Positions 8,801 to 43,390 of a DNA stretch of 64,000 nucleotides are shown here, in pieces (position 1 is the first letter of the stretch; each line of letters begins with the position of its first letter). The position numbers and the translations under genes were made by a program. The DNA comes from Henricia sp. BOLD:AAB3569 (Eukaryota > Echinodermata > Asteroidea > Spinulosida > Echinasteridae), in NCBI GenBank assembly GCA_037783545.1, contig JBBELK010000550.1, positions 682,001 through 746,000 on the forward strand, in the 5' to 3' direction. The notes beneath the pieces were generated by a model that saw only the letters and a program-made list of their open reading frames with translations, made no database searches and was not told the origin of the DNA.

Positions 8801-8865
8801 CTTTGATTGCAACCCGCTGTCCGGCGCCGATGGTTTTTCAACTGTTGGGCTCAGTGTTGATTTCT
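8801..8865 (-). CDS. Beta exon, cassette nearest the ZU5 exon
   Basis: Acceptor ATGCTTCGATTTCTCAG precedes AG AAA TCA, and AAG is followed by donor GTAGGG. The exon is 65 nt, entering in phase 1 and leaving in phase 0. It reads KSTLSPTVEKPSAPDSGLQSK when split after SAP (about 21 residues). It joins in frame to GAT GAC ATG of the ZU5 exon. There is no SINE in front of this copy, so it shows the ancestral acceptor context. Confidence 0.7.
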
Positions 8866-9500
8866 CTGAGAAATCGAAGCATATCAAATATTCACATACT
8901 ACTATATTTCTGAAATTGTTGCTTCTTTGGAAGCTTGTTACACTTGGTGTCTCCTGAGAAAAGACAGCGTGGATGAAAAAGTATAGACTTACTAAGTCTA
9001 ATATTTCTAAGATTGGGATTGTTGCGTTTTGGTGTTTTTACCTAGCGATGTTCAATACTACATTGTTTTGCAGAAGTCTACAGCCCACAATTTTCTAAAT
9101 ACCCCACATACTTCTCAATTAATTTATAATATGTTGCTGCAGATGACCTACAGTGAACCGGGTCAAAGCAAGTTTACGTTGTCTTGTACCCACCTCCCGT
9201 CGTGGACGTCCCATTGTTCCTCTTTTGTTTGGACTTAGTTCTTTTGGCGACTGCTCTAGTTTGTTTTCTACACTATTCCAAATCGCGGAAGTCCTTGGCA
9301 ATCGCGGACTCTATTGTTAAACGTCCCCCATGTTGAATACAGAAACCCGCACGTCCACACTTACGTAACTCAAGAGGTATCTAGCGTCAACGCACTCTTT
9401 TTATAACATGTTTAATAAAAAAAAACCAACAACCCAACAAACAAAACACCGGAGCAGCTTGCCCCAATTCACGTGATCCTGGTTGAAATGTTGGACATAC

Positions 9501-9579
9501 CAAGTGTATGTTTTATTTCAAGAAGCTCCTTTAGCATACTATCAAGGAACCGTTCCACGTCCAACGTCGTTTCTATGAC
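9501..9579 (-). CDS. Alpha exon, cassette nearest the ZU5 exon
   Basis: Acceptor TTCTTATTTTACTCAG precedes GTC ATA. The donor after ACA CTT G is GTATGT. The exon is 79 nt, phase 0 to 1, reading VIETTLDVERFLDSML then KELLEIKHTL. It is longer and more helix-like than the young array copies, whose alpha is 49 nt. It resembles the older alpha exons at 43321-43390 and 36613-36715 (hydrophobic heptad-like spacing, 'LKKL.EI' ending). Confidence 0.7.
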
Positions 9580-9599
9580 CTGAGTAAAATAAGAATATC

Positions 9600-11020
9600 A
9601 TAAATACCAGTTAATAAAATACTTTCAAGCTTGCATGTAATTTCTATTTAGTATGCTTTAGCCTATAGTGTTGGACTTGAATCCTAATGTCCGAATATTC
9701 GTAACCAATGCAACACTAAATCGACCCCCCTTTTTCAATTGGAAACTGTATCATGAAAAGGCGCATGGAAGCAGTTTACGGCAATTGAACGGATCCCAGC
9801 AAAAAAGACGCATTTGTTTTACGTCGGGTAAGGGCAAAAACAAACCCTAATTAACATTTGTTTTACCTGTTTGGCTATAGTTTGTAAATTACCGGAACCT
9901 AATCATTGTATACACTTGTTAAACCCTATTGATTCTCAAAGTGTTATATTAATATATTATTCTTATTAAATCACATTGTTTCTTTGTCAGTGTGATCTTG
10001 TTGGATTTTTGTTGCATTTAAAAAAAATCCGGACTTTTTAAGCAATTTACTTTTACTACGGCCAAATGGTTGATTTAAGTTTTGGGACATTGCAAATCCA
10101 ATAATACCTCCAACATATATGAGCTAAAGTATATTGGACCAAATATTGTGTACAGTAAGCACGAAATCGTGCAGTGTGAACATCATTCTACGTCAAAATT
10201 ATCCTCTTCAATTAGGCTAGCTAGATTAATCCTCTAACCGTCAATGGTATAGATTTGTACGATAAGAATATGCATTTTAAAAAATGACAGGCTAACAGTT
10301 AACGACGGTCCTTTCTCGATTAGTAACCCCGTCAAGAAAAAGCGCATGAAGTGTTTTTTCTTGGCGGTCATGAAACACGAAGTAAAAACCACAGAACCCC
10401 ATGGACTATGGCTATGCAAATTTGTTAAGTGGTTTGTAGTCAAATTCATAAGTGTGAAAGCAGGTTACAATGGGACGATTTTTGTGGTCACAGCACTCAA
10501 AATCGTGAATTTGGACGACTTTTAAAAATTTGCACCAAAAATTTGTACCAAAAATAATGCTGTTTTTTTTGCTCCTGAACGGCACATGCGTTCACCGGCT
10601 GTGACACTCAAGAATACTGTTTTGGGATGTCCCACCGTATTATATGATACAACTGAAAGCTTAAGAAATCTGAGTATTTGTTGCAATTAAATGGCCGTAG
10701 CCCAGGGACTAATATTTTAGTAGCAAAGTATGTTACTTAATTATGGGTATGCTCTCACAACATAGACAAGGCTGTACCGCGCTTCTAAGAAGGGGATATA
10801 ACACAGAACCGTGTCCGTAATCTTCCTTTGCAACTTTTACTAGACTATAGTTTACACTTGGGATACATGTACGTGTATGCTTTTAGGTTTTCAAATGGAT
10901 CGTATTTCAACCTGACTCATATAGAGAAGTCTACATCCAACTAAAGTGTGACGTAATTATGCTTTATGTATTGCATGTGAAACAAAACTCAACTAATTCC
11001 ACCATGTTAAATCCCCCTAC
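9600..11020 (-). other. Intron of unit 2
   Basis: This is intron sequence shared by all units, including ATCCGGACTTTTTAAGC, a GCACGAAATCGTGC hairpin (about 10160-10173) and GGCTGTGACACT blocks. Open frames here of 60-140 codons on both strands recur in every unit but have no splice or start context. Confidence 0.6.
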
Positions 11021-11085
11021 CTTTGATTGCAACCCGCTGTCCGGCACGGATGGTTTTTCAACTGTTGCGCTCAGTATTGATTTCT
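11021..11085 (-). CDS. Beta exon, unit 2
   Basis: Acceptor CTTCGATTTTTCAG precedes AG AAA TCA, and AAG is followed by GTAGGG. The exon is 65 nt, phase 1 to 0, and reads KSILSATVEKPS then VPDSGLQSK. The acceptor's pyrimidine tract adjoins the T-rich tail of the SINE. Confidence 0.65.
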
Positions 11086-11103
11086 CTGAAAAATCGAAGC
11101 ATA

Positions 11104-11428
11104 AAAAAAACATAATAATAATGGATTATTATATAGCGCACATGTCCACCCTGCGGGGTGCTCCCGCCGCTGTTGCCATTATTACCGCTGCCATCAGGAA
11201 ATCACCAGAACCATTTCGCTTCAACTAGGTGGCTGCTGGTCAGGCGCACAACCCTATCAGCACTCAGATTGTGGCATTCCCCCCTAACAGCTTCCCAAAT
11301 ATCGCTTGGGTTGACGAGGCAACTGGGATTAAGTGCCTTGCCCAGAAACACAGACACGTCGGTCGAAGTGGGGCTTGAACCCACAACCTCTGATTGAGAA
11401 TCCTGCTTTATACCCACTAGACCACATT
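11104..11428 (-). mobile_element. tRNA-derived SINE, family A, unit 2
   Basis: Minus-strand head: box A TGGTCTAGTGGGTATAAAGC, box B GGGTTCAAGCCCCAC, most like tRNA-Glu/Asp. A core with TTTCTGGGCAAGGCACTTAA follows, and then a tail of ATT repeats ending in T. The same SINE lies at the same place in units 2 to 8 and is absent from the cassette at 8.8 kb, so it was inserted once before the array expanded. Confidence 0.85.
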
Positions 11429-11970
11429 ATATTTTTGAAATTGTTGCATCTTTGGAAGCTTATTACACTTGGTGTCTCCTGGTAAAAGACAGCATGGAAG
11501 AAAAAGTATAGACTTAGGAATATTGCTAAGATTGGGACTGTTGCGTTTTGGTGTTTTTACCGAGCGATGTTCAATATTACATTGATTTGCAGATGACTAT
11601 CTACAGCCCACAATTTTCTAAATACCCCATATACTTCTAAAGATTTTTAGAATATGTTGCTGCAAATCACAGTGAACCGGGTCAGAGCAAGTTCACGTTA
11701 TCTTGTACCCACCTCTCGTCGTAGACGTCCCATTGTTCCTCTTTTGTTTGGACGTATTTTTGTTGGCGACTGCTCTAGTTTGTTTTGTACACTGTTCCAA
11801 ATCGCGCACCCTCTTAGCAATCGCGGACTCTATTGATCCTATTGTTAAAATAGGCCATTTTAAATGCAGAAACCCGCACGTCCACACTCACGTAACGTAA
11901 TAGGCATCTAGCGTCAATGCACTCTTTTTATAACATGTTTAATAAAAAACAAACAACCCAACAAACAAAA

Positions 11971-12595
11971 CACCAAACCATTCCGGAGCGGCTTGCCCCA
12001 ATTCACGTGATCCTGGTTGAAAAGTGGACATACCAAGTTCATGTTTCTTCGTTGGCTTACTAACACCAAACCGTCCCGTAGCAGCTTCCCCCAATTTATG
12101 TGATCCTGGTTGAAAAGTGGACACACCAAGTTCATGTTTCTTCGTTGGCTTACTAACACCAAACCATTCCGGAGCAGCTTGCCCCAATTCACGTGATCCT
12201 GGTTGAAAAGTGGACACACCAAGTTCATGTTTCTTCGTTGGCTTACTAACACCAAACCGTCCCGTAGCAGCTTCCCCCAATTTATGTGATCCTGGTTGAA
12301 AAGTGGACACACCAAGTTCATGTTTCTTCGTTGGCTTACTAACACCAAACCATTCCGGAGCAGCTTGCCCCAATTCACGTGATCCTGGTTGAAAAGTGGA
12401 CATACCAAGTTCATGTTTCTTCGTTGGCTTACTAACACCAAACCATTCCGGAGCAGCTTGCCCCAATTCACGTGATCCTGGTTGAAAAGTGGACATACCA
12501 AGTTCATGTTTCTTCGTTGGCTTACTAACACCAAGCCGTCCCGTAGCAGCTTCCCCCAATTTATGTGATCCTGGTTGAAAAGTGGACACACCAAG
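11971..12595 (-). repeat. 93-bp minisatellite overlapping the alpha donor, unit 2 (about 6.7 copies)
   Basis: Two alternating 93-bp variants occur. In the alpha reading frame they encode blocks such as SHKLGEAATGRLGVSKPTKK and SRELGQAAPEWFGVSKPTKK. The unit is exactly 31 codons, so all frames stay open. Each copy carries CTTG followed by GTATGT or GTGTGT, the same junction as the alpha donor. Confidence 0.9.
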
Positions 12596-12640
12596 TTTAT
12601 GCTTCTTCTTTAGCCTAACACGGAGGTTTGACCCTATGAC
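12592..12640 (-). CDS. Alpha exon, unit 2
   Basis: Acceptor TATTTTACTCAG precedes GTC ATA GGG, and CTT G is followed by GTGTGT. The exon is 49 nt, phase 0 to 1, and reads VIGSNLRVRLKKKHKL; the R where other units have K is a single A to G change. Further in-phase donors lie every 93 bp downstream in the minisatellite. Confidence 0.6.
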
Positions 12641-12839
12641 CTGAGTAAAATAAGAATATCATAAATACCAGGTAATAAAATACTTTCAAGCTTGCATGTA
12701 ATTTATATGCCTATAGTGTTAATATTGGACTTAAAGTCTGATTTCCTAATATTCGTAAACAATGCAACACGAAATCGACCCCCCCTTTTCAATTGGAAAC
12801 CGTATCATGAAAAGGCGCATGAAAGCAGTTTACGGCAAT

Positions 12840-13268
12840 GCATAGTTCCGAGATTGCCCAGTTAACCCCGCCCCTTAGATATTGTTGCTATGTGCTCACA
12901 AGCCATCGCAAAAAAATGGCGACACGTACGTACAAAGCAACGGGACTCGGCATGGAAAGCACAGATTCATTGGAGAAAACTCGAAGGTATTTATGTTTTA
13001 GGGTCGACAGTTGCCGTAGCACACACTGAGCGAAGGGCTAGTAATGCAGGGATGACATATATTTATAAAAATGCGCTTTCCTACCTTTGAACAGCGAATC
13101 GCCCGACATTAAAACCAAAATTCACCCAGTCACTGGCGCATACAACATACAAACTGTATGGGCAAAAACATTGCGTGATTGTGATCGATGATTGCATCAC
13201 TTTGACCTTTGTGGGCGCCGTCTGTGATTGGTCGCGGGTTCGGCTTGATTGACAGGTCGGAACTATGC
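12840..13268. mobile_element. 429-bp MITE inserted in one array unit
   Basis: Ends GCATAGTTCCGA are inverted copies. The other units read GGCAATTGAACGGATCCC uninterrupted here, whereas this unit has GGCAAT, the element, then ATTGAACGG, giving an AT duplication. The insertion is confined to this unit, so it postdates the array expansion or escaped later homogenisation. Confidence 0.85.
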
Positions 13269-14547
13269 ATTGAACGGATCCCAGCAAAAAAGAACGCATT
13301 TGTTTTACGTCGGGTAAGGGCAAAAACAAACCCTAATTAACATTTGTTTTACCTGTTTGGCTATAATTTGTAAATTACCGGAACCTAATCATTGTACACT
13401 TGTTAAACCATATTGATTCTCAAAGTGTTATATTAATACATTATTCTTATTAAATCACATTGTTTCTTTGTCAGTGTGATCTTGTTGGATTTTTGTTGCA
13501 TTTAAAAAAAATCCGGACTTTTTAAGCAATTTACTTTTACTACGGCCAAATGGTTGATTTAAGTTTTGGGACATTGCAAATCCAATAATACCTCCAACAT
13601 ATATGAGCTAAAGTATATTGGACCAAATATTGTGTACAGTAAGCACGAAATCGTGCAGTGTGAACATCTTTCTACGTCAAAATTATCCTCTTCAATTAGG
13701 CTAGCTAGATTAATCCTCTAACCGTCAATGGTATAGATTTGTACGATAAGAATATGCATTTAAAAAAATGACAGGCTAACAGTTAACGACGGTCCTTTCT
13801 CGATTAGTAATCCCGTCAAGAAAAAGCGCATGAAGTGTTTTTTCCTGGCGGTCATGAAACACGAACTAAAAACAAGAAAAAGCGCATGAAGTGTTTTTTC
13901 CTGGCGGTCATGAAACACGAACTAAAAACCACAGAACCCCATGGACTATGGCTATGCAAATTTGTTAAGTGGTTTGTAGTCAAATTCTCATCATAAGTGT
14001 GAAAGCAGGTTACAATGGGACGATTTTTGTGGTCACAGCACTCAAAATCGTGAATTTGGACGACTTTTAAAAATTTGTACCAAAAATAATGCTGTTTTTT
14101 TGCTCCTGAACGGCCAATGCGTTCACCGGCTGTGACACTTAAGAATACTGTTTTGGGATGTCCCACCGTATTATATGATACAACTGAAAGCTTAAGAAAT
14201 CTGAGTATTTGTTGCAATTAAATGGCCGTAGCCCAGGGACTAATATTTTAGTAGCAAAGTATGTTACTTAATTATGGGTATGCTCTCACAACATAGACAA
14301 GGCTGTACCGCTTCTAAGAAGGGGATATAACACAGAACCGTGTCCGTAATCTTCCTTTGCAACTTTTACTAGACTAGTTTACACTTTGGATACATGTACG
14401 TGTATGCTTTTAGGTTTTCAAATGGATCGTATTTCAACCCGACTCATATAGAGAAGTCTACATCCAACTAAAGTGTGACGTAATTATGCTTTATGTATTG
14501 CATGTGAAACAAAACTCAACTAATTCCACTATGTTAAATCCCCCTAC

Positions 14548-14612
14548 CTTTGATTGCAACCCGCTGTCCGGCACGGATGGTTTTTCAACTGTTGCGCTCA
14601 GTATTGATTTCT
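14548..14612 (-). CDS. Beta exon, unit 3
   Basis: Same 65-nt phase 1 to 0 exon as unit 2, with acceptor GATTTTTCAG and donor GTAGGG. Reads KSILSATVEKPS, VPDSGLQSK. Confidence 0.65.
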
Positions 14613-14630
14613 CTGAAAAATCGAAGCATA

Positions 14631-14955
14631 CAAAAAAACATAATAATAATGGATTATTATATAGCGCACATGTCCACCCTGCGGGGTGCTCCTGCCGCTG
14701 TTGCCATTATTACCGCTGCCATCAGGAAATCACCAGAACCATTTCGCTTCAACTAGGTGGCTGCTGGTCAGGCGCACAACCCTATCAGCACTCAGATTGT
14801 GGCATTCCCCCTAACAGCTACCCAAATATCGCTTGGGTTGACGAGGCAACTTGGATTAAGTGCCTTGCCCAGAAACACAGACACGTCGGTCGAAGTGGGG
14901 CTTGAACCCACAACCTCTGATTGGGAATCCTGCTTTATACCCACTAGACCACATT
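14631..14955 (-). mobile_element. tRNA-derived SINE, family A, unit 3
   Basis: Orthologous to the unit 2 SINE. The tRNA-like boxes are intact: TGGTCTAGTGGG and GGGTTCAAGCCCC. Confidence 0.85.
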
Positions 14956-15497
14956 ATATTTTTGAAATTGTTGCATCTTTGGAAGCTTATTACACTTGGT
15001 GTCTCCTGAGAAAAGACAGCGTGGAAGAAAAAGTATAGACTTAGGAATATTGCTAAGATTGGGACTGTTGCGTTTTGGTGTTTTTACAGAGCGATGTTCA
15101 ATATTACATTGATTTGCAGATGACTATCTACAGCCCACAATTTTCTAAATACCCCATATACTTCTAAAGATTTTTAGAATATGTTGCTGCAAATCACAGT
15201 GAACCGGGTCAGAGCAAGTTCACGTTATCTTGTACCCACCTCTCGTCGTAGACGTCCCATTGTTCCTCTTTTGTTTGGACGTATTTTTGTTGGCGACTGC
15301 TCTAGTTTGTTTTGTACACTGTTCCAAATCGCGCACCCTCTTAGCAATCGCGGACTCTATTGATCCTATTGTTAAAATAGGCCATTTTAAATGCAGAAAC
15401 CCGCACGTCCACACTCACGTAACGTAATAGGCATCTAGCGTCAACGCACTCTTTTTATAACATGTTTAATAAAAAAAAAAAACCCAACAAACAAAAC

Positions 15498-16379
15498 ACC
15501 AAACCATTCCGGAGCGGCTTGCCCCAATTCACGTGATCCTGGTTGAAAAGTGGACATACCAAGTTCATGTTTCTTCGTTGGCTTACTAACACCAAACCGT
15601 CCCGTAGCAGCTTCCCCCAATTTATGTGATCCTGGTTGAAAAGTGGACACACCAAGTTCATGTTTCTTCGTTGGCTTACTAACACCAAACCATTCCGGAG
15701 CAGCTTGCCCCAATTCACGTGATCCTGGTTGAAAAGTGGAGACACCAAGTTCATATTTCTTCGTTGGCTTACTAACACCAAACCGTCCCGTAGCAGCTTC
15801 CCCCAATTTATGTGATCCTGGTTGAAAAGTGGACACACCAAGTTCATGTTTCTTCGTTGGCTTACTAACACCAAACCATTCAGGAGCAGCTTGCCCCAAT
15901 TCACGTGATCCTGGTTGAAAAGTGGACATACCAAGTTCATGTTTCTTCGTTGGCTTACTAACACCAAACCATTCCGGAGCAGCTTGCCCCAATTCACGTG
16001 ATCCTGGTTGAAAAGTGGACATACCAAGTTCATGTTTCTTCGTTGGCTTACTAACACCAAGCCGTCCCGTAGCAGCTTCCCCCAATTTATGTGATCCAAG
16101 TTCATGTTTCTTCGTTGGCTTACTAACACCAAACCATTCAGGAGCAGCTTGCCCCAATTCACGTGATCCTGGTTGAAAAGTGGACATACCAAGTTCATGT
16201 TTCTTCGTTGGCTTACTAACACCAAACCATTCCAGAGCAGCTTGCCCCAATTCACGTGATCCTGGTTGAAAAGTGGACATACCAAGTTCATGTTTCTTCG
16301 TTGGCTTACTAACACCAAGCCGTCCCGTAGCAGCTTCCCCCAATTTATGTGATCCTGGTTGAAAAGTGGACACACCAAG
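15498..16379 (-). repeat. 93-bp minisatellite, unit 3 (about 9.5 copies, longest)
   Basis: Same two variants as unit 2, with one copy shortened by an in-frame internal deletion near 16098. Open in the alpha frame for the whole length (about 300 codons), ending in a stop only beyond the last copy. Confidence 0.9.
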
Positions 16380-16424
16380 TTTATGCTTCTTCTTTAGCTT
16401 AACACGGAGGTTTGACCCTATGAC
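16376..16424 (-). CDS. Alpha exon, unit 3
   Basis: The 49-nt phase 0 to 1 exon reads VIGSNLRVKLKKKHKL, with donor GTGTGT. It is followed by the longest minisatellite and therefore the largest choice of in-phase alternative donors. Confidence 0.6.
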
Positions 16425-17857
16425 CTGAGTAAAATAAGAATATCATAAATACCAGATAATAAAATACTTTCAAGCTTGCATGTAATTTATATGCCTATAG
16501 TGTTAATATTGGACTTAAAGTCTGATTTCCTAATATTCGTAAACAATGCAACACGAAATCGACCCCCCCTTTTCAATTGGAAACCGTATCATGAAAAGGC
16601 GCATGAAAGCAGTTTACGGCAATTGAACGGATCCCAGCAAAAAAGACGCATTTGTTTTACGTCGGGTAAGGGCAAAAACAAACCCTAATTAACATTTGTT
16701 TTACCTGTTTGGCTATAGTTTGTAAATTACCGGAACCTAATCATTGTACACTTGTTAAACCATATTGATTCTCAAAGTGTTATATTAATACATTATTCTT
16801 ATTAAATCACATTGTTTCTTTGTCAGTGTGATCTTGTTGGATTTTTGTTGCATTTAAAAAAAATCCGGACTTTTTAAGCAATTTACTTTTACTACGGCCA
16901 AACGGTTGATTTAAGTTTTGGGACATTGCAAATCCAATAATACCTCCAACATATATGAGCTAAAGTATATTGGACCAAATATTGTGTACAGTAAGCACGA
17001 AATCGTGCAGTGTGAACATCATTCTACGTCAAAATTATCCTCTTCAATTAGGCTAGCTAGATTAATCCTCTAACCGTCAATGGTATAGATTTGTACGATA
17101 AGAATATGCATTTAAAAAAATGACAGGCTAACGGTTAACGACGGTCCTTTCTCGATTAGTAACCCCGTCAAGAAAAAGCGAATGAAGTGTTTTTTCCTGG
17201 CGGTCATGAAACACGAAGTAAAAACCACAGAACCCCATGGACTATGGCTATGCAAATTTGTTAAGTGGTTTGTAGTCAAATTCTCATCATAAGTGTGAAA
17301 GCAGGTTACAATGGGACGATTTTTGTGGTCACAGCACTCAAAATCGTGAATTTGGACGAATTTTAAAAATTTGCACCAAAAATTTGTACCAAAAATAATG
17401 CTGTTTTTTGCTCCTGAACGGCACATGCGTTTACCGGCTGTGACACTTAAGAATACTGTTTTGGGATGTCCCACCGTATTATATGATACAACTGAAAGCT
17501 TAAGAAATCTGAGTATTTGTTGCAATTAAATGGCCGTAGCCCAGGGACTAATATTTTAGTAGCAAAGTATGTTACTTAATTATGGGTATGCTCTCACAAC
17601 ATAGACAAGGCTGTACCGCTTCTAAGAAGGGGATATAACACAGAACCGTGTCCGTAATCTTCCTTTGCAACTTTTACTAGACTATAGTTTACACTTTGGA
17701 TACATGTACGTGTATGCTTTTAGGTTTTCAAATGGATCGTATTTCAACCTGACTCATATAGAGAAGTCTACATCCAACTAAAGTGTGACGTAATTATGCT
17801 TTATGTATTGCATGTGAAACAAAACTCAACTAATTCCACTATGTTAAATCCCCCTAC

Positions 17858-17922
17858 CTTTGATTGCAACCCGCTGTCCGGCACGGATGGTTTTTCAACT
17901 GTTGCGCTCAGTATTGATTTCT
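17858..17922 (-). CDS. Beta exon, unit 4
   Basis: 65-nt phase 1 to 0 exon identical in sense to unit 2. The acceptor is preceded by an extended T run from the SINE tail. Confidence 0.65.
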
Positions 17923-17940
17923 CTGAAAAATCGAAGCATA

Positions 17941-18262
17941 AAAAAAAACATAATAATAATGGATTATATAGCGCACATGTCCACCCTGCGGGGTGCTCCC
18001 GCCGCTGTTGCCATTATTACCGCTGCCATCAGGAAATCACCAGAACCATTTCGCTTCAACTAGGTGGCTGCTGGTCAGGCGCACAACCCTATCAGCACTC
18101 AGATTGTGGCATTCCCCCTAACAGCTACCCAAATATCGCTTGGGTTGACGAGGCAACTTGGATTAAGTGCCTTGCCCAGAAACACAGACACGTCGGTCGA
18201 AGTGGGGCTTGAACCCACGACCTCTGATTGGGAATCCTGCTTTATACCCACTAGACCACATT
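17941..18262 (-). mobile_element. tRNA-derived SINE, family A, unit 4
   Basis: Same insertion as in unit 2, with a shorter ATT tail and a longer T run. Box B is GGGTTCAAGCCCC. Confidence 0.85.
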
Positions 18263-18805
18263 ATATTTTTGAAATTGTTGCATCTTTGGAAGCTTATTAC
18301 ACTTGGTGTCTCCTGAGAAAAGACAGCGTGGAAGAAAAAGTATAGACTTAGGAATATTGCTAAGATTGGGACTGTTGCGTTTTGGTGTTTTTACCGAGCG
18401 ATGTTCAATATTACATTGATTTGCAGATGACTATCTACAGCCCACAATTTTCTAAATACCCCATATACTTCTAAAGATTTTTAGAATATGTTGCTGCAAA
18501 TCACAGTGAACCGGGTCAGAGCAAGTTCACGTTATCTTGTACCCACCTCTCGTCGTAGAGGTCCCATTGTTCCTCTTTTGTTTGGACGTATTTTTGTTGG
18601 CGACTGCTCTAGTTTGTTTTGTACACTGTTCCAAATCGCGCACCCTCTTAGCAATCGCGGACTCTATTGATCCTATTGTTAAAATAGGCCATTTTAAATG
18701 CAGAAACCCGCACGTCCACACTCACGTAACGTAATAGGCATCTAGCGTCAATGCACTCTTTTTATAACATGTTTAATAAAAAACAAACAACCCAACAAAC
18801 AAAAC

Positions 18806-18964
18806 ACCAAACCATTCCGGAGCGGCTTGCCCCAATTCACGTGATCCTGGTTGAAAAGTGGACATACCAAGTTCATGTTTCTTCGTTGGCTTACTAACAC
18901 CAAGCCGTCCCGTAGCAGCTTCCCCCAATTTATGTGATCCTGGTTGAAAAGTGGACACACCAAG
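18806..18964 (-). repeat. 93-bp minisatellite, unit 4 (about 1.7 copies)
   Basis: Contains one copy of each variant, the short allele seen in units 4 to 8. It overlaps the alpha donor. Confidence 0.9.
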
Positions 18965-19009
18965 TTTATGCTTCTTCTTTAGCTTAACACGGAGGTTTGA
19001 CCCTATGAC
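18961..19009 (-). CDS. Alpha exon, unit 4
   Basis: 49 nt, phase 0 to 1, VIGSNLRVKLKKKHKL, acceptor TTTTACTCAG, donor GTGTGT. One further in-phase GTATGT donor lies 93 bp downstream. Confidence 0.6.
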
Positions 19010-20446
19010 CTGAGTAAAATAAGAATATCATAAATACCAGGTAATAAAATACTTTCAAGCTTGCATGTAATTGATATGCCTATAGTGTTAATATTGGACT
19101 TAAAGTCTGATTTCCTAATATTCGTAAACAATGCAACACGAAATCGACCCCCCCCCCCTTTTCAATTGGAAACCGTATCATGAAAAGGCGCATGGAAGCA
19201 GTTTACGGCAATTGAACGGATCCCAGCAAAAAGAACGCATTTGTTTTACGTCGGGTAAGGGCAAAAACAAACCCTAATTAACATTTGTTTTACCTGTTTG
19301 GCTATAGTTTGTAAATTACCGGAACCTAATCATTGTACACTTGTTAAACCATATTGATTCTCAAAGTGTTATATTAATATATTATTCTTATTAAATCACA
19401 TTGTTTCTTTGTCAGTGTGATCTTGTTGGATTTTTGTTGCATTTAAAAAAAATCCGGACTTTTTAAGCAATTTACTTTTACTACGGCCAAATGGTTGATT
19501 TAAGTTTTGGGACATTGCAAATCCAATAATACCTCTAACATATATGAGCTAAAGTATATTGGACCAAATACTGTGTACAGTAAGCACGAAATCGTGCAGT
19601 GTGAACATCATTCTACGTCAAAATTATCCTCTTCAATCAGGCTAGCTAGATTAATCCTCTAACCGTCAATGGTATAGATTTGTACGATAAGAATATGCAT
19701 TTAAAAAAATGACAGGCTAACGGTTAACGACGGTCCTTTCTCGATTAGTAACCCCGTCAAGAAAAAGCGAATGAAGTGTTTTTTCCTGGCGGTCATGAAA
19801 CACGAACTAAAAACCACAGAACCCCATGGACTATGGCTATGCAAATTTGTTAAGTGGTTTGTAGTCAAATTCTCATCATAAGTGTGAAAGCAGGTTACAA
19901 TGGGACGATTTTTGTGGTCACAGCACTCAAAATCGTGAATTTGGACGAATTTTAAAAATTTGCACCAAAAATTTGTACCAAAAATAATGCTGTTTTTTGC
20001 TCCTGAACGGCACATGCGTTTACCGGCTGTGACACTTAAGAATACTGTTTTGGGATGTCCCACCGTATTATATGATACAACTGAAAGCTTAAGAAATCTG
20101 AGTATTTGTTGCAATTAAATGGCCGTAGCCCAGGGACTAATATTTTAGTAGCAAAGTATGTTACTTAATTATGGGTATGCTCTCACAACATAGACAAGGC
20201 TGTACCGCTTCTAAGAAGGGGATATAACACAGAACCGTGTCCGTAATCTTCCTTTGCAATTTTTACTAGACTATAGTTTACACTTTGGATACATGTACGT
20301 GTATGCTTTTAGGTTTTCAAATGGATCGTATTTCAACCTGACTCATATAGAGAAGTCTACATCCAACTAAAGTGTGACGTAATTATGCTTTATGTATTGC
20401 ATGTGAAACAAAACTCAACTAATTCCACTATGTTAAATCCCCCTAC

Positions 20447-20511
20447 CTTTGATTGCAACCCGCTGTCCGGCACGGATGGTTTTTCAACTGTTGCGCTCAG
20501 TATTGATTTCT
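20447..20511 (-). CDS. Beta exon, unit 5
   Basis: 65 nt, phase 1 to 0, KSILSATVEKPS, VPDSGLQSK. Acceptor GATTTTTCAG, donor GTAGGG. Confidence 0.65.
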
Positions 20512-20529
20512 CTGAAAAATCGAAGCATA

Positions 20530-20851
20530 AAAAAAAACATAATAATAATGGATTATATAGCGCACATGTCCACCCTGCGGGGTGCTCCCGCCGCTGTTGC
20601 CATTATTACCGCTGCCATCAGGAAATCACCAGAACCATTTCGCTTCAACTAGGTGGCTGCTGGTCAGGCGCACAACCCTATCAGCACTCAGATTGTGGCA
20701 TTCCCCCTAACAGCTACCCAAATATCGCTTGGGTTGACGAGGCAACTTGGATTAAGTGCCTTGCCCAGAAACACAGACACGTCGGTCGAAGTGGGGCTTG
20801 AACCCACAACCTCTGATTGGGAATCCTGCTTTATACCCACTAGACCACATT
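20530..20851 (-). mobile_element. tRNA-derived SINE, family A, unit 5
   Basis: Same insertion as in the neighbouring units, nearly identical to unit 4. Confidence 0.85.
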
Positions 20852-21394
20852 ATATTTTTGAAATTGTTGCATCTTTGGAAGCTTATTACACTTGGTGTCT
20901 CCTGAGAAAAGACAGCGTGGAAGAAAAAGTATAGACTTAGGAATATTGCTAAGATTGGGACTGTTGCGTTTTGGTGTTTTTACCGAGCGATGTTCAATAT
21001 TACATTGATTTGCAGATGACTATCTACAGCCCACAATTTTCTAAATACCCCATATACTTCTAAAGATTTTTAGAATATGTTGCTGCAAATCACAGTGAAC
21101 CGGGTCAGAGCAAGTTCACGTTATCTTGTACCCACCTCTCGTCGTAGACGTCCCATTGTTCCTCTTTTGTTTGGACGTATTTTTGTTGGCGACTGCTCTA
21201 GTTTGTTTTGTACACTGTTCCAAATCGCGCACCCTCTTAGCAATCGCGGACTCTATTGATCCTATTGTTAAAATAGGCCATTTTAAATGCAGAAACCCGC
21301 ACGTCCACACTCACGTAACGTAATAGGCATCTAGCGTCAATGCACTCTTTTTATAACATGTTTAATAAAAAACAAACAACCCAACAAACAAAAC

Positions 21395-21553
21395 ACCAAA
21401 CCATTCCGGAGCGGCTTGCCCCAATTCACGTGATCCTGGTTGAAAAGTGGACATACCAAGTTCATGTTTCTTCGTTGGCTTACTAACACCAAGCCGTCCC
21501 GTAGCAGCTTCCCCCAATTTATGTGATCCTGGTTGAAAAGTGGACACACCAAG
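21395..21553 (-). repeat. 93-bp minisatellite, unit 5 (about 1.7 copies)
   Basis: Short allele identical to that of unit 4, overlapping the alpha donor. Confidence 0.9.
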
Positions 21554-21598
21554 TTTATGCTTCTTCTTTAGCTTAACACGGAGGTTTGACCCTATGAC
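21550..21598 (-). CDS. Alpha exon, unit 5
   Basis: 49 nt, phase 0 to 1, VIGSNLRVKLKKKHKL, donor GTGTGT. Confidence 0.6.
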
Positions 21599-23031
21599 CT
21601 GAGTAAAATAAGAATATCATAAATACCAGGTAATAAAATACTTTCAAGCTTGCATGTAATTGATATGCCTATAGTGTTAATATTGGACTTAAAGTCTGAT
21701 TTCCTAATATTCGTAAACAATGCAACACGAAATCGACCCCCCCTTTTCAATTGGAAACCGTATCATGAAAAGGCGCATGGAAGCAGTTTACGGCAATTGA
21801 ACGGATCCCAGCAAAAAGAACGCATTTGTTTTACGTCGGGTAAGGGCAAAAACAAACCCTAATTAACATTTGTTTTACCTGTTTGGCTATAGTTTGTAAA
21901 TTACCGGAACCTAATCATTGTACACTTGTTAAACCATATTGATTCTCAAAGTGTTATATTAATATATTATTCTTATTAAATCACATTGTTTCTTTGTCAG
22001 TGTGATCTTGTTGGATTTTTGTTGCATTTAAAAAAAATCCGGACTTTTTAAGCAATTTACTTTTACTACGGCCAAATGGTTGATTTAAGTTTTGGGACAT
22101 TGCAAATCCAATAATACCTCTAACATATATGAGCTAAAGTATATTGGACCAAATATTGTGTACAGTAAGCACGAAATCGTGCAGTGTGAACATCATTCTA
22201 CGTCAAAATTATCCTCTTCAATTAGGCTAGCTAGATTAATCCTCTAACCGTCAATGGTATAGATTTGTACGATGAGAATATGCATTTAAAAAAATGACAG
22301 GCTAACGGTTAACGACGGTCCTTTCTCGATTAGTAACCCCGTCAAGAAAAAGCGAATGAAGTGTTTTTTCCTGGCGGTCATGAAACACGAACTAAAAACC
22401 ACAGAACCCCATGGACTATGGCTATGCAAATTTGTTAAGTGGTTTGTAGTCAAATTCTCATCATAAGTGTGAAAGCAGGTTACAATGGGACGATTTTTGT
22501 GGTCACAGCACTCAAAATCGTGAATTTGGACGAATTTTAAAAATTTGCACCAAAAATTTGTACCAAAAATAATGCTGTTTTTTGCTCCTGAACGGCACAT
22601 GCGTTTACCGGCTGTGACACTTAAGAATACTGTTTTGGGATGTCCCACCGTATTATATGATACAACTGAAAGCTTAAGAAATCTGAGTATTTGTTGCAAT
22701 TAAATGGCCGTAGCCCAGGGACTAATATTTTAGTAGCAAAGTATGTTACTTAATTATGGGTATGCTCTCACAACATAGACAAGGCTGTACCGCTTCTAAG
22801 AAGGGGATATAACACAGAACCGTGTCCGTAATCTTCCTTTGCAATTTTTACTAGACTATAGTTTACACTTTGGATACATGTACGTGTATGCTTTTAGGTT
22901 TTCAAATGGATCGTATTTCAACCTGACTCATATAGAGAAGTCTACATCCAACTAAAGTGTGACGTAATTATGCTTTATGTATTGCATGTGAAACAAAACT
23001 CAACTAATTCCACTATGTTAAATCCCCCTAC

Positions 23032-23096
23032 CTTTGATTGCAACCCGCTGTCCGGCACGGATGGTTTTTCAACTGTTGCGCTCAGTATTGATTTCT
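23032..23096 (-). CDS. Beta exon, unit 6
   Basis: 65 nt, phase 1 to 0, KSILSATVEKPS, VPDSGLQSK. Confidence 0.65.
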
Positions 23097-23114
23097 CTGA
23101 AAAATCGAAGCATA

Positions 23115-23436
23115 AAAAAAAACATAATAATAATGGATTATATAGCGCACATGTCCACCCTGCGGGGTGCTCCCGCCGCTGTTGCCATTATTACCGCTGC
23201 CATCAGGAAATCACCAGAACCATTTCGCTTCAACTAGGTGGCTGCTGGTCAGGCGCACAACCCTATCAGCACTCAGATTGTGGCATTCCCCCTAACAGCT
23301 ACCCAAATATCGCTTGGGTTGACGAGGCAACTTGGATTAAGTGCCTTGCCCAGAAACACAGACACGTCGGTCGAAGTGGGGCTTGAACCCACAACCTCTG
23401 ATTGGGAATCCTGCTTTATACCCACTAGACCACATT
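23115..23436 (-). mobile_element. tRNA-derived SINE, family A, unit 6
   Basis: Same insertion as in units 4 and 5, nearly identical. Confidence 0.85.
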
Positions 23437-23979
23437 ATATTTTTGAAATTGTTGCATCTTTGGAAGCTTATTACACTTGGTGTCTCCTGAGAAAAGACAG
23501 CGTGGAAGAAAAAGTATAGACTTAGGAATATTGCTAAGATTGGGACTGTTGCGTTTTGGTGTTTTTACCGAGCGATGTTCAATATTACATTGATTTGCAG
23601 ATGACTATCTACAGCCCACAATTTTCTAAATACCCCATATACTTCTAAAGATTTTTAGAATATGTTGCTGCAAATCACAGTGAACCGGGTCAGAGCAAGT
23701 TCACGTTATCTTGTACCCACCTCTCGTCGTAGACGTCCCATTGTTCCTCTTTTGTTTGGACGTATTTTTGTTGGCGACTGCTCTAGTTTGTTTTGTACAC
23801 TGTTCCAAATCGCGCACCCTCTTAGCAATCGCGGACTCTATTGATCCTATTGTTAAAATAGGCCATTTTAAATGCAGAAACCCGCACGTCCACACTCACG
23901 TAACGTAATAGGCATCTAGCGTCAATGCACTCTTTTTATAACATGTTTAATAAAAAACAAACAACCCAACAAACAAAAC

Positions 23980-24138: not shown

Positions 24139-24183
24139 TTTATGCTTCTTCTTTAGCTTAACACGGAGGTTTGACCCTATGAC
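24135..24183 (-). CDS. Alpha exon, unit 6
   Basis: 49 nt, phase 0 to 1, VIGSNLRVKLKKKHKL, donor GTGTGT. Confidence 0.6.
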
Positions 24184-25681: not shown

Positions 25682-25699
25682 CTGAAAAATCGAAGCATA

Positions 25700-28174: not shown

Positions 28175-28239
28175 CTTTGATCGCAACCCGCTGTCCGGCA
28201 CGGATGGTTTTTCAACTGTTGCGCTCAGTATTGATTTCT
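28175..28239 (-). CDS. Beta exon, unit 8
   Basis: 65 nt, phase 1 to 0. One change near the end turns the QSK ending into RSK (codon CAA to CGA). Acceptor and donor are intact. Confidence 0.65.
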
Positions 28240-28257
28240 CTGAAAAATCGAAGCATA

Positions 28258-28585
28258 AAAAAAACATAATAATAATGGATTATTATATAGCGCACATGTC
28301 CACCCTGCGGGGTGCTCCCGCCGCTGTTGCCATTATTACCGCTGCCATCAGGAAATCACCAGAACCATTTCGCTTCAACTAGGTGGCTGCTGGTCAGGCG
28401 CACAACCCTATCATCAGCACTCAGATTGTGGCATTCCCCCTAACAGCTACCCAAATATCGCTTGGGTTGACGAGGCCACTTGGATTAAGTGCCTTGCCCA
28501 GAAACACAGACACGTCGGTCGAAGTGGGGCTTGAACCCACAACCTCTGATTGGGAATCCTGCTTTATACCCACTAGACCACATTA
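28258..28585 (-). mobile_element. tRNA-derived SINE, family A, unit 8
   Basis: Same insertion as in units 2 to 7, with the longer ATT tail shared with units 2 and 3. Confidence 0.85.
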
Positions 28586-29125
28586 TATTTTTGAAATTGT
28601 TGCATCTTTGGAAGCTTATTACACTTGGTGTCTCCTGAGAAAAGACAGCGTGGATAAAAAGGAAAGACTTAGGAATATTGCTAAGATTGGGACTGTTGCG
28701 TTTTGGTATTTTTACCGAGCGATGTTCAATATTACATTGATTTGCAGATGACTATCTACAGCCCACAATTTTCTAAATACCCCATATACTTCTAAAGATT
28801 TTTAGAATATGTTGCTGCAAATCACAGTGAACCGGGTCAGAGCAAGTTCACGTTGTCTTGTACCCACCTTCCGTCGTAGACGTCCCATTGTTCCTCTTTT
28901 GTTTGGACGTATTTTTGTTGGCGACTGCTCTAGTTTGTTTGTACACTGTTCCAAATCGCGCACCCCCTTAGCAATCGCGGACTCTATTGATCCTATTGTT
29001 AAAATAGGCCATTTTAAATGCAGAAACCCGCACGTCCACACTCACGTAACGTAATAGGCATCTAGCGTCAACGCACTCTTTTTATAACATGTTTAATAAA
29101 AAACAAACAACCCAACAAACAAAAC

Positions 29126-29284
29126 ACCAAACCATTCCGGAGCAGCTTGCCCCAATTCACGTGATCCTGGTTGAAAAGTGGACATACCAAGTTCATGTTT
29201 CTTCGTTGGCTTACTAACACCAAGCCGTCCCGTAGCAGCTTCCCCCAATTTATGTGATCCTGGTTGAAAAGTGGACACACCAAG
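29126..29284 (-). repeat. 93-bp minisatellite, unit 8 (about 1.7 copies)
   Basis: Short allele overlapping the alpha donor. Confidence 0.9.
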
Positions 29285-29329
29285 TTTATGCTTCTTCTTT
29301 AGCTTAACACGGAGGTTTGACAATATGAC
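29281..29329 (-). CDS. Alpha exon, unit 8 (5'-most of the young array)
   Basis: 49 nt, phase 0 to 1, reading VILSNLRVKLKKKHKL; G is replaced by L relative to other units. Acceptor GTTTTACTCAG. Confidence 0.6.
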
Positions 29330-29811
29330 CTGAGTAAAACAAGAATATCATAAATACCAGGTAATAAAATACTTTCAAGCTTGCATGTAATTTATATGCC
29401 TATAGTGTTAATATTGGACTTAAAGTCTGATTTCCTAATATTCGTAAACAATGCAACACGAAATCGACCCTCCCTTTTCAATTCGAAACCATATCATGAA
29501 AAGGCGCATGAAAGCAGTTTACGGCAATTGAATGCATCCCAGCAAAAAAAGACGCATTTGTTTTACGTCGGGTAAGGGCAAAAACAAACCCTAATTAACA
29601 TTTGTTTTACCTATTTGGCTATAGTTTGTAAATTACCGGAACCTAATCATTGTACACTTGTTATTAAACCCTATTGATTTTCAAAGTGTTCTATTAATAT
29701 ATTATTCCTATTAAATCACATTGTTTCTTTGTCAGTGTGATCTTGTTGGATTTTTGATGCATTTGAACAAATCTTGACACTACTGGTAGTTGGGAAATTT
29801 TTAGATTGTGG

Positions 29812-30422: not shown

Positions 30423-30559
30423 CTTTGATTGAATCAAGTCACTCAGCCTTTGTTCCATTTGACGGCTCCTGGCGCTTGCGGACGGCAGGATGCTTTGATG
30501 AAAACCTAACCCAGAGAGAATTATGTTAAGTTGGAGGAATTTGCTTTTTTCACAAAACT
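30423..30559 (-). CDS. Beta exon, older type, probably orphaned
   Basis: Acceptor ACCCTGTAG precedes AG TTT TGT GAA, and TCA AAG is followed by GTAGGG. The exon is 137 nt, phase 1 to 0, 45 codons. It begins FCEKSKFLQLNIILSGLGFH and ends RQMEQRLSDLIQSK. It matches beta exon 37198-37349 (KSKFLQRIDLSELG) at its start. No alpha exon lies between it and the next beta exon at 35211, so including it after that exon would break the frame. It may be skipped or may pair with an unrecognised exon such as 31983-32102. Confidence 0.5.
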
Positions 30560-35210: not shown

Positions 35211-35296
35211 CTTGAATTGCTGCCTGTCATCCCGGGTGTCGTCCGAAACCGATTGTTCACAATCTGATGTGCTTGGTGTTGTTTTCTCCGATTGAA
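35211..35296 (-). CDS. Beta exon, older type, block B
   Basis: Acceptor ATTTGGCCTAG precedes TT CAA TCG GAG, and TTC AAG is followed by GTACGT. The exon is 86 nt, phase 1 to 0, reading QSEKTTPSTSDCEQSVSDD then TRDDRQQFK. The SEK(S/T)T start matches the young beta exons. Its acceptor lies exactly at the join to block A', so the duplication breakpoint created or altered the upstream intron. Confidence 0.6.
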
Positions 35297-36612: not shown

Positions 36613-36715
36613 CCCACATCTCAAAGAAATATGGCACAAGTTTTGCAGACGTTTCTTCAAGCTTCTTTAATGTAGCATAAAGCAACGTCTTAAGCTCTGA
36701 CACTGCTTGCATGAC
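36613..36715 (-). CDS. Alpha exon, older type
   Basis: Acceptor TTATTTTACTCAG precedes GTC ATG CAA, and ATG TGG G is followed by donor GTAAGC. The exon is 103 nt, phase 0 to 1, reading VMQAVSELKTLLYATLKKLE then ETSAKLVPYFFEMW. It is amphipathic and probably helical. The donor site GGG|GTAAGC corresponds to GGG|GCAAGC in the young array, where the donor has moved about 40 nt upstream to GTGTGT or GTATGT. Confidence 0.7.
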
Positions 36716-37197: not shown

Positions 37198-37349
37198 CTC
37201 TGATTGCGTCAAGTCGTCCGGCACCGATTGTTTAACTGTTGTTTTTACTTCTTGTTCCACTATCTTCTTGGGCTCGATGTGGCGCGTGATGGAAGACAAA
37301 GTGGAACCTAACTCGGAGAGATCAATACGTTGGAGGAATTTACTTTTTC
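37198..37349 (-). CDS. Beta exon, older type, long
   Basis: TCA GAG is followed by GTATGG. The best in-phase acceptor is GTAGAGATAAG before GA AAA AGT, which is a weak site. The exon is 152 nt, phase 1 to 0, 50 codons: KSKFLQRIDLSELGSTLSSI, TRHIEPKKIVEQEVKTTV, KQSVPDDLTQSE. The end aligns with VEKPSVPDSGLQSK of the young beta exons. Confidence 0.6.
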
Positions 37350-37916: not shown

Positions 37917-38079
37917 CTAGTGCCAAGTCCGGGTCCACGTTCAATCCCACGCCAACGAAAGGTATCATGCACATTAACCTATTGGCTGCAGTCACACCGG
38001 ACAGCTGCATGTGCATTTCTATAAGCTTAACACGTGTAGTAAAAACAATATTCCTTAGGTTGGACGCTACTCCCATGAC
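37917..38079 (-). CDS. Alpha exon, longest
   Basis: Acceptor CATTTTACTTAG precedes GTC ATG GGA, and GCA CTA G is followed by GTAAGA. The exon is 163 nt, phase 0 to 1, 54 codons. It begins VMGVASNLRNIVFTTRVKLI and ends VGVGLNVDPDLAL. The VKL(I/K) core and SNLR are shared with the young alpha exons (VIGSNLRVKL). Confidence 0.7.
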
Positions 38080-39871: not shown

Positions 39872-39957
39872 CTTGAATTGCTGCCTGTCATCCCGGGTGT
39901 CGTCCGAAACCGATTGTTCACAATCTGATGTGCTTGGTGTTGTTTTCTCCGATTGAT
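39872..39957 (-). CDS. Beta exon, older type, block B'
   Basis: 86 nt, phase 1 to 0, same protein as the block B copy. Its acceptor (ATGATTAGGCCTAG before AT CAA TCG) lies in non-duplicated sequence and so has a different intron context. Confidence 0.6.
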
Positions 39958-40699: not shown

Positions 40700-42420
40700 A
40701 CTACCATGAGGGTAGTTGCGACCTCCAGCTTCCCCTATCAAACGCACGAGACCAGCACTCAGGTGGAGACAGCTTCACAGAATCTGCGACCTACGTGAGC
40801 CATGTGAGACGAGAGTGATCACGGGGCCTCCTCCAGGTGACAGGCCGTTGCCTAAAATGGACCTGGACGGCTGTATCAAGAGCGGAGCAGCAGTTTGGAG
40901 ACGTCGAACATGGCCAAAGAGGTTGTGCCTCCTCCCTTCAATCTCTGACAGAATGCTCCCAAGACCGGTTTTTTGTTGCACAGTTGTTATAGATGAAGTC
41001 AAACCAGCGGATTCCAAGTACGCTGACACTGCGTATGGAAGGCTTTGAGTCGATCTTGATTCTTCTTTTGAGTGTCCAGGTTTCAGACACGTAAAAAAGG
41101 GTGGAGATCACACAGGCACTATAAAGACGGAGCTTTACTGAGGGACTTGCATGGCTTGCTCCTCAAAAGACGATCAAGTTGGCCCATGATGGTACTGGCG
41201 ATGCAAATTCTGCGTAGAATATGTCATTACTGCAAAGACCTGATGTGTCAGTTGTACTCCCAAGATAGCAAAATGAGCTGACTGGCTGAACAAATTCAGA
41301 ACCCAGAGAGACTGGAACAGGTGCTTGACCACACACATTTTGAACCTTGGTTCTGTCCATAAGGCCAGCATAACTGGTCACACGTTTAAAGGCTGTAAGT
41401 ATTTCCCTCCACTTGGTGGGGTCGTCGTTAAAGAGTACAGCATAGTCTACGTACAAGAGACCGGTGAACCTGTGATCCCCAACGTCAGTTCCAAGTGATT
41501 GTTCACACTGTAACATAGTTGTGTCGATGATGGAGCATAACAAAGTGGGTGCCAACACACAACCCTGACGGACTCCAAAGATGTCATGAAAGGGGAGATA
41601 AATCATTCCCCACCGTGACATTGTCTCTCGTGCTTGCGTGTAGAGCTTTGATGAGATCTCGAATTGTATCTGAGATTCCCTTTGCGAAAAGGGTACTCCA
41701 CACCTGACTCCGATCTACTGAATCAAACGCTGCCTCAGTATCCACATAGGCAACTGAGAGGGGGTGACTGTACTCATGAAGTTCAGCAAGAATGCGTGGA
41801 GCAAGAATCTGAGGTGGAACGACCAGGAGTGAAGCCTGACTGTTATGCATGGTAATGAGAAGAGGATGAATTCTGGAGAGCAGAATGTCAGCAAAGACCT
41901 TTCCAGGAATTGAGAGCAGGGTGATGGGTCGGTAACTGCTGCAACCCGTCCTTGGGCATTTCCCTTAATAAAGAGGAAGAATTATGTTGTCTTTCCAGTC
42001 CGCCGGGACCTCACAAGATGACCACTCATCTGAGATGATCCTATGAAGCGCCTTGTACATCAGTATATCTGAGATATGCGGAAAAATGCCATCCTCTCCG
42101 CTGGACCTTATTAAGAGATGGAGGGTCACAATCTAGATCAAAGTCCGGCTTCGGTTTCAGATACTGAACAATTGATTCGTACCATGTTTCGAGATCTTGC
42201 TTCACATTGGCGTCGTATATACAGTCTGATAGACGGCGAATTTCAGCGTGACACTTATGCGGGCAGCACGCTTCTGTTCGATGATTAGTGAGCTATTAGT
42301 GAGCCATCGGCGGCACCGAGGCCTGGGTCACGAAAGAAGGCCCAGGGGTTTTCTACAGATCCAGGACGTTCACCAAGAACATCAAAACGGTTTTAAACCT
42401 CAACACAGTAGCTAGTGGCC
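40700..42420 (-). pseudogene. Non-LTR retrotransposon (LINE) reverse transcriptase, decayed
   Basis: Minus-strand text gives AYVDTEAAFDSVDRSQVW (RT motif A, where D..AFD is usual), FGVRQGCVLAPTLLCSIIDT (motif B), GLLYVDYAVLF (motif C, the YADD catalytic box changed to YVDY), SFCYLGS and, in the C-terminal domain, RLYSACVISTLFY, SETWTLKRR, LGIRWFDFI and RRHNLFGHVRRLQ. The order matches non-LTR retrotransposon polyproteins. Frameshifts, stops and the altered catalytic box make it dead. It lies in the intron between the cassettes at 39.9 and 43.4 kb, in the same orientation as the gene. Confidence 0.85.
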
Positions 42421-42429
42421 ACTACAGGG

Positions 42430-43320
42430 TCCGTCGGAAGATTATTCAAGAACATACCAGTGTAGTATAGTGCGGATTTAACCATTTGCATCCTATATTA
42501 TTTTCATTGGGTGCAAAAGGTGCTGCTTTGGGGCCCCAATAGACCTTTGGGGTGCAAAGGGTTAATTTTAGAATGGCATTGAACTTTGTAACGTTTTTGT
42601 TCCGTGTTAAACCTGAAGTTTAAGCCCGACCCATTATGCAATAAAGGGGTGACCATGTCTTCTGACGAAATGTTTCCGAATTACTGCACATAATGTCCAG
42701 ATTTTTATCCCGTGTAGCATGTTCACAATAAATTGGAGCAAGCTATTTCACACGTACAAAGACACATCCAGCAATTATGCATGTTATACGTATACGTAAA
42801 AATAACACAAAGACACCAAACCTTTTCAAGAGCAGCTTGCCCCCGATTATTAGCCTCAAGAGTGACCGTAAGCGTAACATTATTGTAAAATACAAATGTT
42901 CATCCTTTTGTTTCATTAGCCATATTGATACTTTTCCGCTCTTGGCTTTCAAGCATCTTTGCACGTTTGAGGGACCGACCTGACATAGACTAATGGTTTG
43001 GAAGTTGGGTCTGTGTAACCTTCGCACTATGGCTTGCGCTCCGAATTCTTCACTTTCAAATTAAGGTGCAGTTAAGGAATTAACTTGTTGCGACGTAGTG
43101 CAGGCCATTGCCTAGCAACCAACAGTCTAGTTGCTTTATGTAATTCTCTCTAACCGAGAACCATGACGTATTGATCCTGTATTTTACCCATGGTACATGC
43201 ACCACATAGCAACAAAACTTTAGTCTGGTCATCTAGATACTAAATGTGCACATCAAAGGAAGTACAGTACCTTAGACGCTATTTATGTGAAACACGTAAA
43301 AGGCTAAATTCTGCACTCAC
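42430..43320 (-). other. Intron with cassette-unit relics
   Basis: Positions 42780-42850 on the minus strand contain GGGGGCAAGCTGCTC and GGTTTGGTGTCTTTGTG, the sequence that follows alpha exons in other units. Positions 43195-43310 match 62893-62995 (GCACCACATAG, then TTAGTCTGGTCA, then CTATTTATG or CTATTCATG). No extra exon was recognised. Confidence 0.55.
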
Positions 43321-43390
43321 ATGATATTTCGTGAAGCTTCTTCAATGAAGTATCAAATATGTCCTCCATGGCCATTATTGCTTGAATGAC
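43321..43390 (-). CDS. Alpha exon, 5'-most recognised
   Basis: Acceptor CTTGTTTTACTCAG precedes GTC ATT CAA, and ATA TCA T is followed by donor GTGAGT. The exon is 70 nt, phase 0 to 1, reading VIQAIMAMEDIFDTSLKKLH then EIS. It aligns with VMQAVSELKTLLYATLKKLE at 36.7 kb. No start codon or promoter was recognised further upstream. Confidence 0.7.

Follow-up and report, generated by a model that had tools for sequence, protein, structure and literature searches.

In the human LPA gene, an intragenic 5.6-kb unit, KIV-2, with exons of 160 and 182 bp is present in 1 to >40 copies per allele, with >40 protein isoforms, according to PMC6314250, while in DMBT1, a host-defence protein, a tandem copy-number array sets the number of SRCR domains, from 7 to 21, with interspersed SID motifs (PMC9038570). 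Here, we describe an array of related construction in a 64,000-nucleotide stretch of the sea star Henricia sp. BOLD:AAB3569 (assembly GCA_037783545.1, contig JBBELK010000550.1, hereafter C550). This stretch, C550:682001-746000, is called the window, and coordinates without a contig name count from its first base; the genome searched comprised 740.7 Mb. On its minus strand, a gene with ZU5, probable UPA, and Death regions is preceded by a tandem array of short exons of two types, alpha and beta. Judged from the sequence, the array is real and beyond chance, and we lean towards reading the locus as one gene in which an UNC5-type tail is preceded by tandem, frame-neutral two-exon cassettes.

Before the ZU5 exon, the minus strand carries 11 alpha and 12 beta-type exons (Table 1, in which the higher coordinate of each exon is its first base). 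A search with exon-border profiles returned 11 alpha copies above background, all at E 7e-23 or better with the next candidate at 0.34, and the corresponding beta search returned 12 copies, with homologous donors, plus one doubtful candidate, b44 (44140-44103). Leave-one-out profiles recovered 6/6 alpha representatives and 6/7 beta representatives, b44 being the miss. The exon counts of the preliminary description are upheld by these searches, as are its alpha lengths of 49 (seven copies), 70, 79, 103, and 163 nucleotides (nt), all 1 mod 3. Of the beta lengths it gave, 65 and 86 nt stand; 137 nt would start at 37334, where there is no AG, and 152 nt could not be placed, the strong alternative acceptor at the beta of 8801 giving 153 nt, which is 0 mod 3. 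With AG acceptors, beta lengths are 65, 83, 86 (or 92), and 110 nt. Outside a run of young units at 9.57-29.77 kb the array is old and irregular. The intron between a43 and b39 holds a broken reverse transcriptase (41163-41961, minus strand; RVT_1 1.4e-7, with a second match of 2.6e-4 below the cut-off).

When each alpha is joined to the next usable beta, 11 cassettes of 114-273 nt result, all of them (11/11, in a model whose beta acceptors were chosen partly for phase) multiples of three, as in the tandem two-exon units of LPA KIV-2. Together they give 519 codons without a stop, continuing into ZU5 and UPA, also with 0 stops. Introns have phase 1 inside a cassette and phase 0 from one cassette to the next. 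As had been proposed, the last beta joins the ZU5 exon in phase 0, through the best-scoring acceptor there, and each young cassette adds 38 residues. The acceptors and donors had also been described as lying at homologous places; this holds for the outer cassette borders, the alpha acceptor and the beta donor, while the alpha donor and the beta acceptor shift position.

The gene that the array precedes is recognized by its domains. The ZU5 domain of UNC5-type proteins scores 74.7 bits in Pfam against a cut-off of 21 and matches UNC5B (3g5b) by sequence and by fold, in a structure model with a mean predicted local distance difference test score of 70 in which residues 182-228, part of UPA, are of low confidence and unreliable. 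UPA reaches 13.7 bits, under its cut-off of 27, and two exons align with the UPA part of the Patiria miniata protein P0005. A Death domain (46.4 bits against a cut-off of 22.6) lies on the same strand about 5.5 kb below the window, with the joining exons partly mapped. Against its paralogues, the ZU5 exon is under strong constraint, with proportions of nonsynonymous (pN) and synonymous (pS) differences of 0.33-0.35 and 0.73-0.77. These domain matches and this constraint establish that the minus-strand ZU5-to-Death gene is real. Among the proteins that match the ZU5 part, those with names are from sea stars, P0002-P0006 from Patiria miniata and P0007 from Asterias amurensis; P0001 comes from an ENA contig. 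UNC5-type proteins feature a netrin-binding ectodomain (Ig, TSP1) and a membrane span. The outer part of P0005 had no tblastn match at E up to 1e-3 in C550:746-793k and a best match of E 0.74 in the window, the Ig and TSP1 families not having been searched. Between the two UPA exons lies an exact 255-bp tandem duplication (3289-3800).

Within the searches made, the array is supported as specific to this locus. The alpha acceptor pattern, with up to two mismatches allowed, has 11 matches in the genome, 11/11 of them here, and the reversed control pattern has 0. A 1507-nt piece of the young unit, taken without its short interspersed nuclear element (SINE), has 6 full-length matches, all in the array (40 of 814 first-look candidates scored), and among the matches listed from other contigs only about 366 nt of intron are covered, corresponding to a dispersed element; the array itself was found on one contig only. 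The ZU5 exon has paralogues at six places, of which C348 holds four and C635 the other two; DNA identity to them is 69-70% across roughly 220-228 nt. Blocks over 2.5 kb that are 90-98% alike suggest that C635 is a second haplotype of C348, which would then account for two of the six places. In what appear to be two versions of one ZU5 gene cluster, one per haplotype, there are three ZU5 genes in C348:526-626k and two in C635:100-150k. Entry into the paralogous ZU5 exon, with acceptors picked by eye, reads as phase 1 at 5/6 places and as phase 0 at one (C348:671k), so entry in phase 0 at this locus is no longer read as tailored to beta.

Is the array coding? Between the four old alpha copies, 38-52% of bases are different (69 bases, ungapped). 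In 4/4 of their cores no forward frame other than the claimed one is open, although one reverse frame is open in two, and in three of the four the helical moment exceeds that of shuffled sequences at p <=0.022, whereas 2.6% of 1500 stop-free control windows reach p 0.02. When descent without selection was simulated on a star tree, all four descendants stayed open and three or more were amphipathic with a probability of 0.003-0.024. Among the betas the claimed frame is open in 5/5, b39 having another open forward frame as well. On balance, these patterns favor, by a modest measure, alpha and beta being coding exons whose exact sequence drifts freely.

Several results weigh against this reading, starting with the splice sites. 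In a blind test, the best site per exon was chosen by splice-site matrix among five distinct alpha donors and six distinct beta acceptors (b44, b39, b37, b30, young, and b8; the copy b35 was left out). Alpha donors were in phase in 4/5 cases, those four being the sites used, with the best-scoring donor of a9 out of phase; beta acceptors were in phase in 3/6, and only two of the six, in the doubtful b44 and the young beta, were the sites used. By this outcome, the phase rule that the preliminary description had thought consistent throughout is fair for alpha and weak for beta. With no alpha between it and the next beta, b35 is left over in the pairing. Copies differ about equally at nonsynonymous (dN) and synonymous (dS) sites (alpha cores pS 0.44, pN 0.45; beta ends 0.34 and 0.44), leaving no purifying signal; this dN/dS comparison, proposed earlier for related species, was made between the copies in the window, and in alpha cores the ratio is about 1, a value compatible with coding and equally with its absence. 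Under neutrality, stop-free cores alone would arise with a probability of 0.02-0.08, the amphipathic signal of a38 is not significant (p 0.17-0.27), and a gap-length test did not separate exon from intron, being uninformative at this divergence. The young exons vary at 4/114 columns, like sampled introns (24/931). No 5' end of the gene was found. Near the paralogues, no alpha or beta match better than E 1.8 was found in the 180 kb around them, in C550:662-682k, or in C550:746-793k, and the linkers of seven protein homologues hold no alpha or beta relatives above shuffled controls. With the N-terminal part as query, EF-hand peptides still included, none of the 7992 candidates scored, within length limits, gave a protein match at E 10 or better.

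Much of this would also follow if alpha and beta were decaying, noncoding exon relics and the gene began elsewhere, splicing over them. The dN to dS balance, the orphan b35, the weak beta acceptors, and the lack of a counterpart in the homologues searched all fit such an account, but open frames in four of four old alphas and amphipathic patterns in three do not, nor does the contrast at a43, a38, and a36 between the 30 intron bases at the acceptor, which are 87-97% alike (60-70% when a9 is included), and the exons, which are 48-62% alike. We regard decay as distinctly unlikely. As for b35, it is a recent copy of the beta at 39957-39872, in a segment 98.9% identical, and lies in a chimeric recent duplication (32881-35307) that joins copies of 35303-36464 (98.6%) and 38707-39968 (98.9%) and lacks a38, b37, and a36.

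Seven units make up the young part of the array, each about 2.59 kb long except for two that insertions have lengthened; over 2533 shared columns they differ by 0.12% to 3.6%. Among four central units, differences amount to only 3-15 of the 2533 bases, and second haplotypes seem to be retained in the assembly (C635 versus C348), as would suit a copy number that is an assembly artefact; but private sites are present in 7/7 units (31, 22, 8, 3, 3, 2, and 1), two units have their own insertions, and the array was found on one contig only, making an artefact highly improbable. The young beta acceptors are directly preceded by an element, absent from the 8801 unit, that is dispersed in the genome (5518 first-look candidates, 39 scored) and reads as a SINE; its tRNA-like nature is a tentative reading, as Rfam and tRNA scans of the window gave no matches. 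After the young alpha exons comes a minisatellite of 93-bp repeats, which reaches its greatest length in two units.

These features also bear on whether the young copies are used. Only the old cassettes and a9-b8 might be spliced in, with the 2.59-kb array a passive intron satellite whose exon copies are skipped. The young alpha is a shortened form with a weaker donor (1.8 versus 4.7-5.1 in a43, a38, and a36), K and R are abundant in the young cassette (9 of its 38 residues, against 3 D or E), the minisatellite carries many comparable donors, the SINE lies just before the beta acceptor, and the young exons are as variable as the introns. Set against this, 7/7 young copies keep their acceptor, donor, frame, and open reading, even if they are too young to reveal selection, and we consider skipping unlikely, though a serious contender. 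Alternatively, one or a few pairs could be chosen per transcript, as alternative cassettes are in arthropod Dscam. Frame-neutral pairs of differing sequence would permit such choice, but seven near-identical copies offer little sequence to choose from, and we find this account improbable.

Two further observations concern the young units. The longest minisatellite tracts (11969-12608 and 15495-16401) comprise two subtypes that differ mostly at third positions of a non-alpha frame, which is open for 312 codons (15455-16393). Long alpha versions running through the 93-bp repeat were considered, as most of the listed donor-like sites are in phase 1 and the frame is open, yet 6/8 subtype differences (counted by eye) fall at third positions of another frame, and alpha-frame coding is not claimed. 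Separately, a9 differs from a12 at 17/49 positions (35%) plus 30 nt of gaps, while BLAST gives 97% identity for a block that starts 6 nt inside the exon and extends upstream for 2.6 kb, with poorer alignment in the 120 nt beside the exon (19/113 different). A border of exchange or gene conversion within this alpha exon is possible.

If the array is indeed a string of coding cassettes, each alpha exon would encode a short helix, amphipathic in 3/4 old copies, and each beta exon a linker of polar character. With outer introns in phase 0 and inner ones in phase 1, a whole cassette could be gained or lost with the frame unmoved. The old cassettes (43-30 kb) would have diverged freely in sequence, and unequal exchange would recently have multiplied one cassette, 2.59 kb at a time, into seven copies that are almost identical. 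Translated, the gene would give a Death-domain protein in which a variable helix-linker string precedes ZU5-UPA-Death. This string would probably tune reach or self-association and, by analogy with other Death-domain proteins, may set assembly. The repeat region that the preliminary description placed before ZU5/UPA holds as a set of locus-specific, frame-neutral cassettes with amphipathic-helix coding in three of the four old alphas, while every copy may be transcribed, constitutively spliced, and translated, and the predicted product may vary in length between individuals and self-associate. A bolder version, which we think doubtful, makes the string a valency module, variable in copy number, of a Death adaptor akin to those of innate immunity, in which selection would keep only the amphipathic pattern of alpha while the sequence drifts nearly neutrally, and repeat number, not sequence, would set the strength of ZU5-Death assembly.

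Table 1. Exons and related features of the minus-strand gene, in window coordinates unless C550 is given
Feature	Position	Strand	Basis or remark
Alpha a43, 70 nt; holds ATGGCCATGG, possible start codon	43321..43390	-	Border profile, leave-one-out; amphipathic p ~0.01
Beta b39, 86 nt (92 nt with better acceptor, also 2 mod 3)	39872..39957	-	Profile, splice scoring
Alpha a38, 163 nt	37917..38079	-	Profile, leave-one-out; amphipathic p 0.17-0.27, not significant
Beta b37, 110 nt	37198..37307	-	Profile; acceptor ranks second by score
Alpha a36, 103 nt	36613..36715	-	Profile, leave-one-out, helical-moment test
Orphan beta b35, recent copy of b39	35211..35296	-	Better acceptor cut off at duplication border
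Beta b30, 83 nt, taken as partner of a36	30423..30505	-	Profile; acceptor ranks second by score
Young tandem array, seven units of ~2.59 kb	9573..29771	-	0.12-3.6% apart
Alpha a29, 49 nt	29281..29329	-	Border pattern
Beta b28, 65 nt	28175..28239	-	Border pattern
Alpha a26, 49 nt	26722..26770	-	Border pattern
Beta b25, 65 nt	25617..25681	-	Border pattern
Alpha a24, 49 nt	24135..24183	-	Border pattern
Beta b23, 65 nt	23032..23096	-	Border pattern
Alpha a21, 49 nt	21550..21598	-	Border pattern
Beta b20, 65 nt	20447..20511	-	Border pattern
Alpha a19, 49 nt	18961..19009	-	Border pattern
Beta b17, 65 nt	17858..17922	-	Border pattern
Alpha a16, 49 nt; then longest 93-bp minisatellite	16376..16424	-	Border pattern
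Beta b14, 65 nt	14548..14612	-	Border pattern
Alpha a12, 49 nt; then long 93-bp minisatellite	12592..12640	-	Border pattern
Beta b11, 65 nt	11021..11085	-	Border pattern
Alpha a9, 79 nt, old-type helix	9501..9579	-	Best-scoring donor elsewhere, out of phase
Beta b8, 65 nt, last cassette exon before ZU5; no SINE upstream	8801..8865	-	Stronger acceptor 153 nt from donor would be out of phase
ZU5 exon and beginning of UPA	7370..8053	-	Phase-0 entry; Pfam ZU5 7.4e-21; PDB UNC5B 4.2e-12; fold match 3g5b 6.4e-10
UPA exon 1, GC donor	5168..5317	-	tblastn of Patiria P0005 against window, E 8.6e-4
UPA exon 2	2921..3118	-	tblastn of P0005 against window, E 0.010
Candidate next exon	1163..1217	-	Frame and acceptor only
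Death-like region, matches P0007	C550:681438-681109	-	Below window
Death domain	C550:676456-676187	-	Pfam Death 4.4e-12

Upstream of the array, two minus-strand EF-hand exons (49713-49489 and 48025-47801) are 78% alike in protein, one without an ATG, and together match calmodulin; between them, too, dN is close to dS (0.124 and 0.113). Their phases would fit a fusion to the array, a possibility that was dropped: the same exon type (53% identical) occurs on C348 in stand-alone calmodulin-like genes with their own ATG and stop, on the strand opposite the ZU5 genes. A link through b44 was likewise abandoned upon its failure in leave-one-out. The two exons are probably fragments of a stand-alone calmodulin-like gene. 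EF-hand and ZU5 genes are neighbors both here and near the ZU5 clusters of C348 and C635.

Among described proteins, the nearest to this gene are UNC5-like sea-star proteins, Patiria miniata LOC119735181 and LOC119735180 (P0005 and P0006) and Asterias amurensis P0007, which are 40, 38, and 37% identical over 90, 86, and 72% of the searched part. As here, ZU5 is followed by a Death or death-like domain, and UPA lies below the Pfam cut-off in P0005 and P0007 and is not reported in P0006. Unlike this gene, their linkers before ZU5 hold no alpha or beta sequence above shuffled controls. P0005 reads as having an outer part and a membrane span, and P0007 has an extra Death domain before ZU5.

Among the matches listed in the open-access literature there is no description of this gene, the helix-linker module, or the lineage, leaving uncontradicted the earlier remark that ZU5/UPA proteins of this construction are not known to have been described; LPA and DMBT1 already show the building principle. 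If the cassettes are used as we propose, the locus would represent an LPA-like, frame-neutral two-exon variable number tandem repeat in an invertebrate Death-domain signaling gene, with no such array in the paralogues at the six places read. It would offer a natural series for relating repeat number to Death-domain protein assembly, and a possible example of an exon class in which a physical pattern is seemingly kept despite dN close to dS. DMBT1 differs in being secreted and in having domain-sized repeats of known fold and unrelated sequence. By analogy, the closest known system is LPA KIV-2, whose exons are by arithmetic also 1 and 2 mod 3 and form a frame-neutral unit as in this array; the Henricia array differs in its 2.59-kb unit, its 49- and 65-nt exons, its helix-linker rather than kringle module, and its place in a ZU5/UPA/Death gene.

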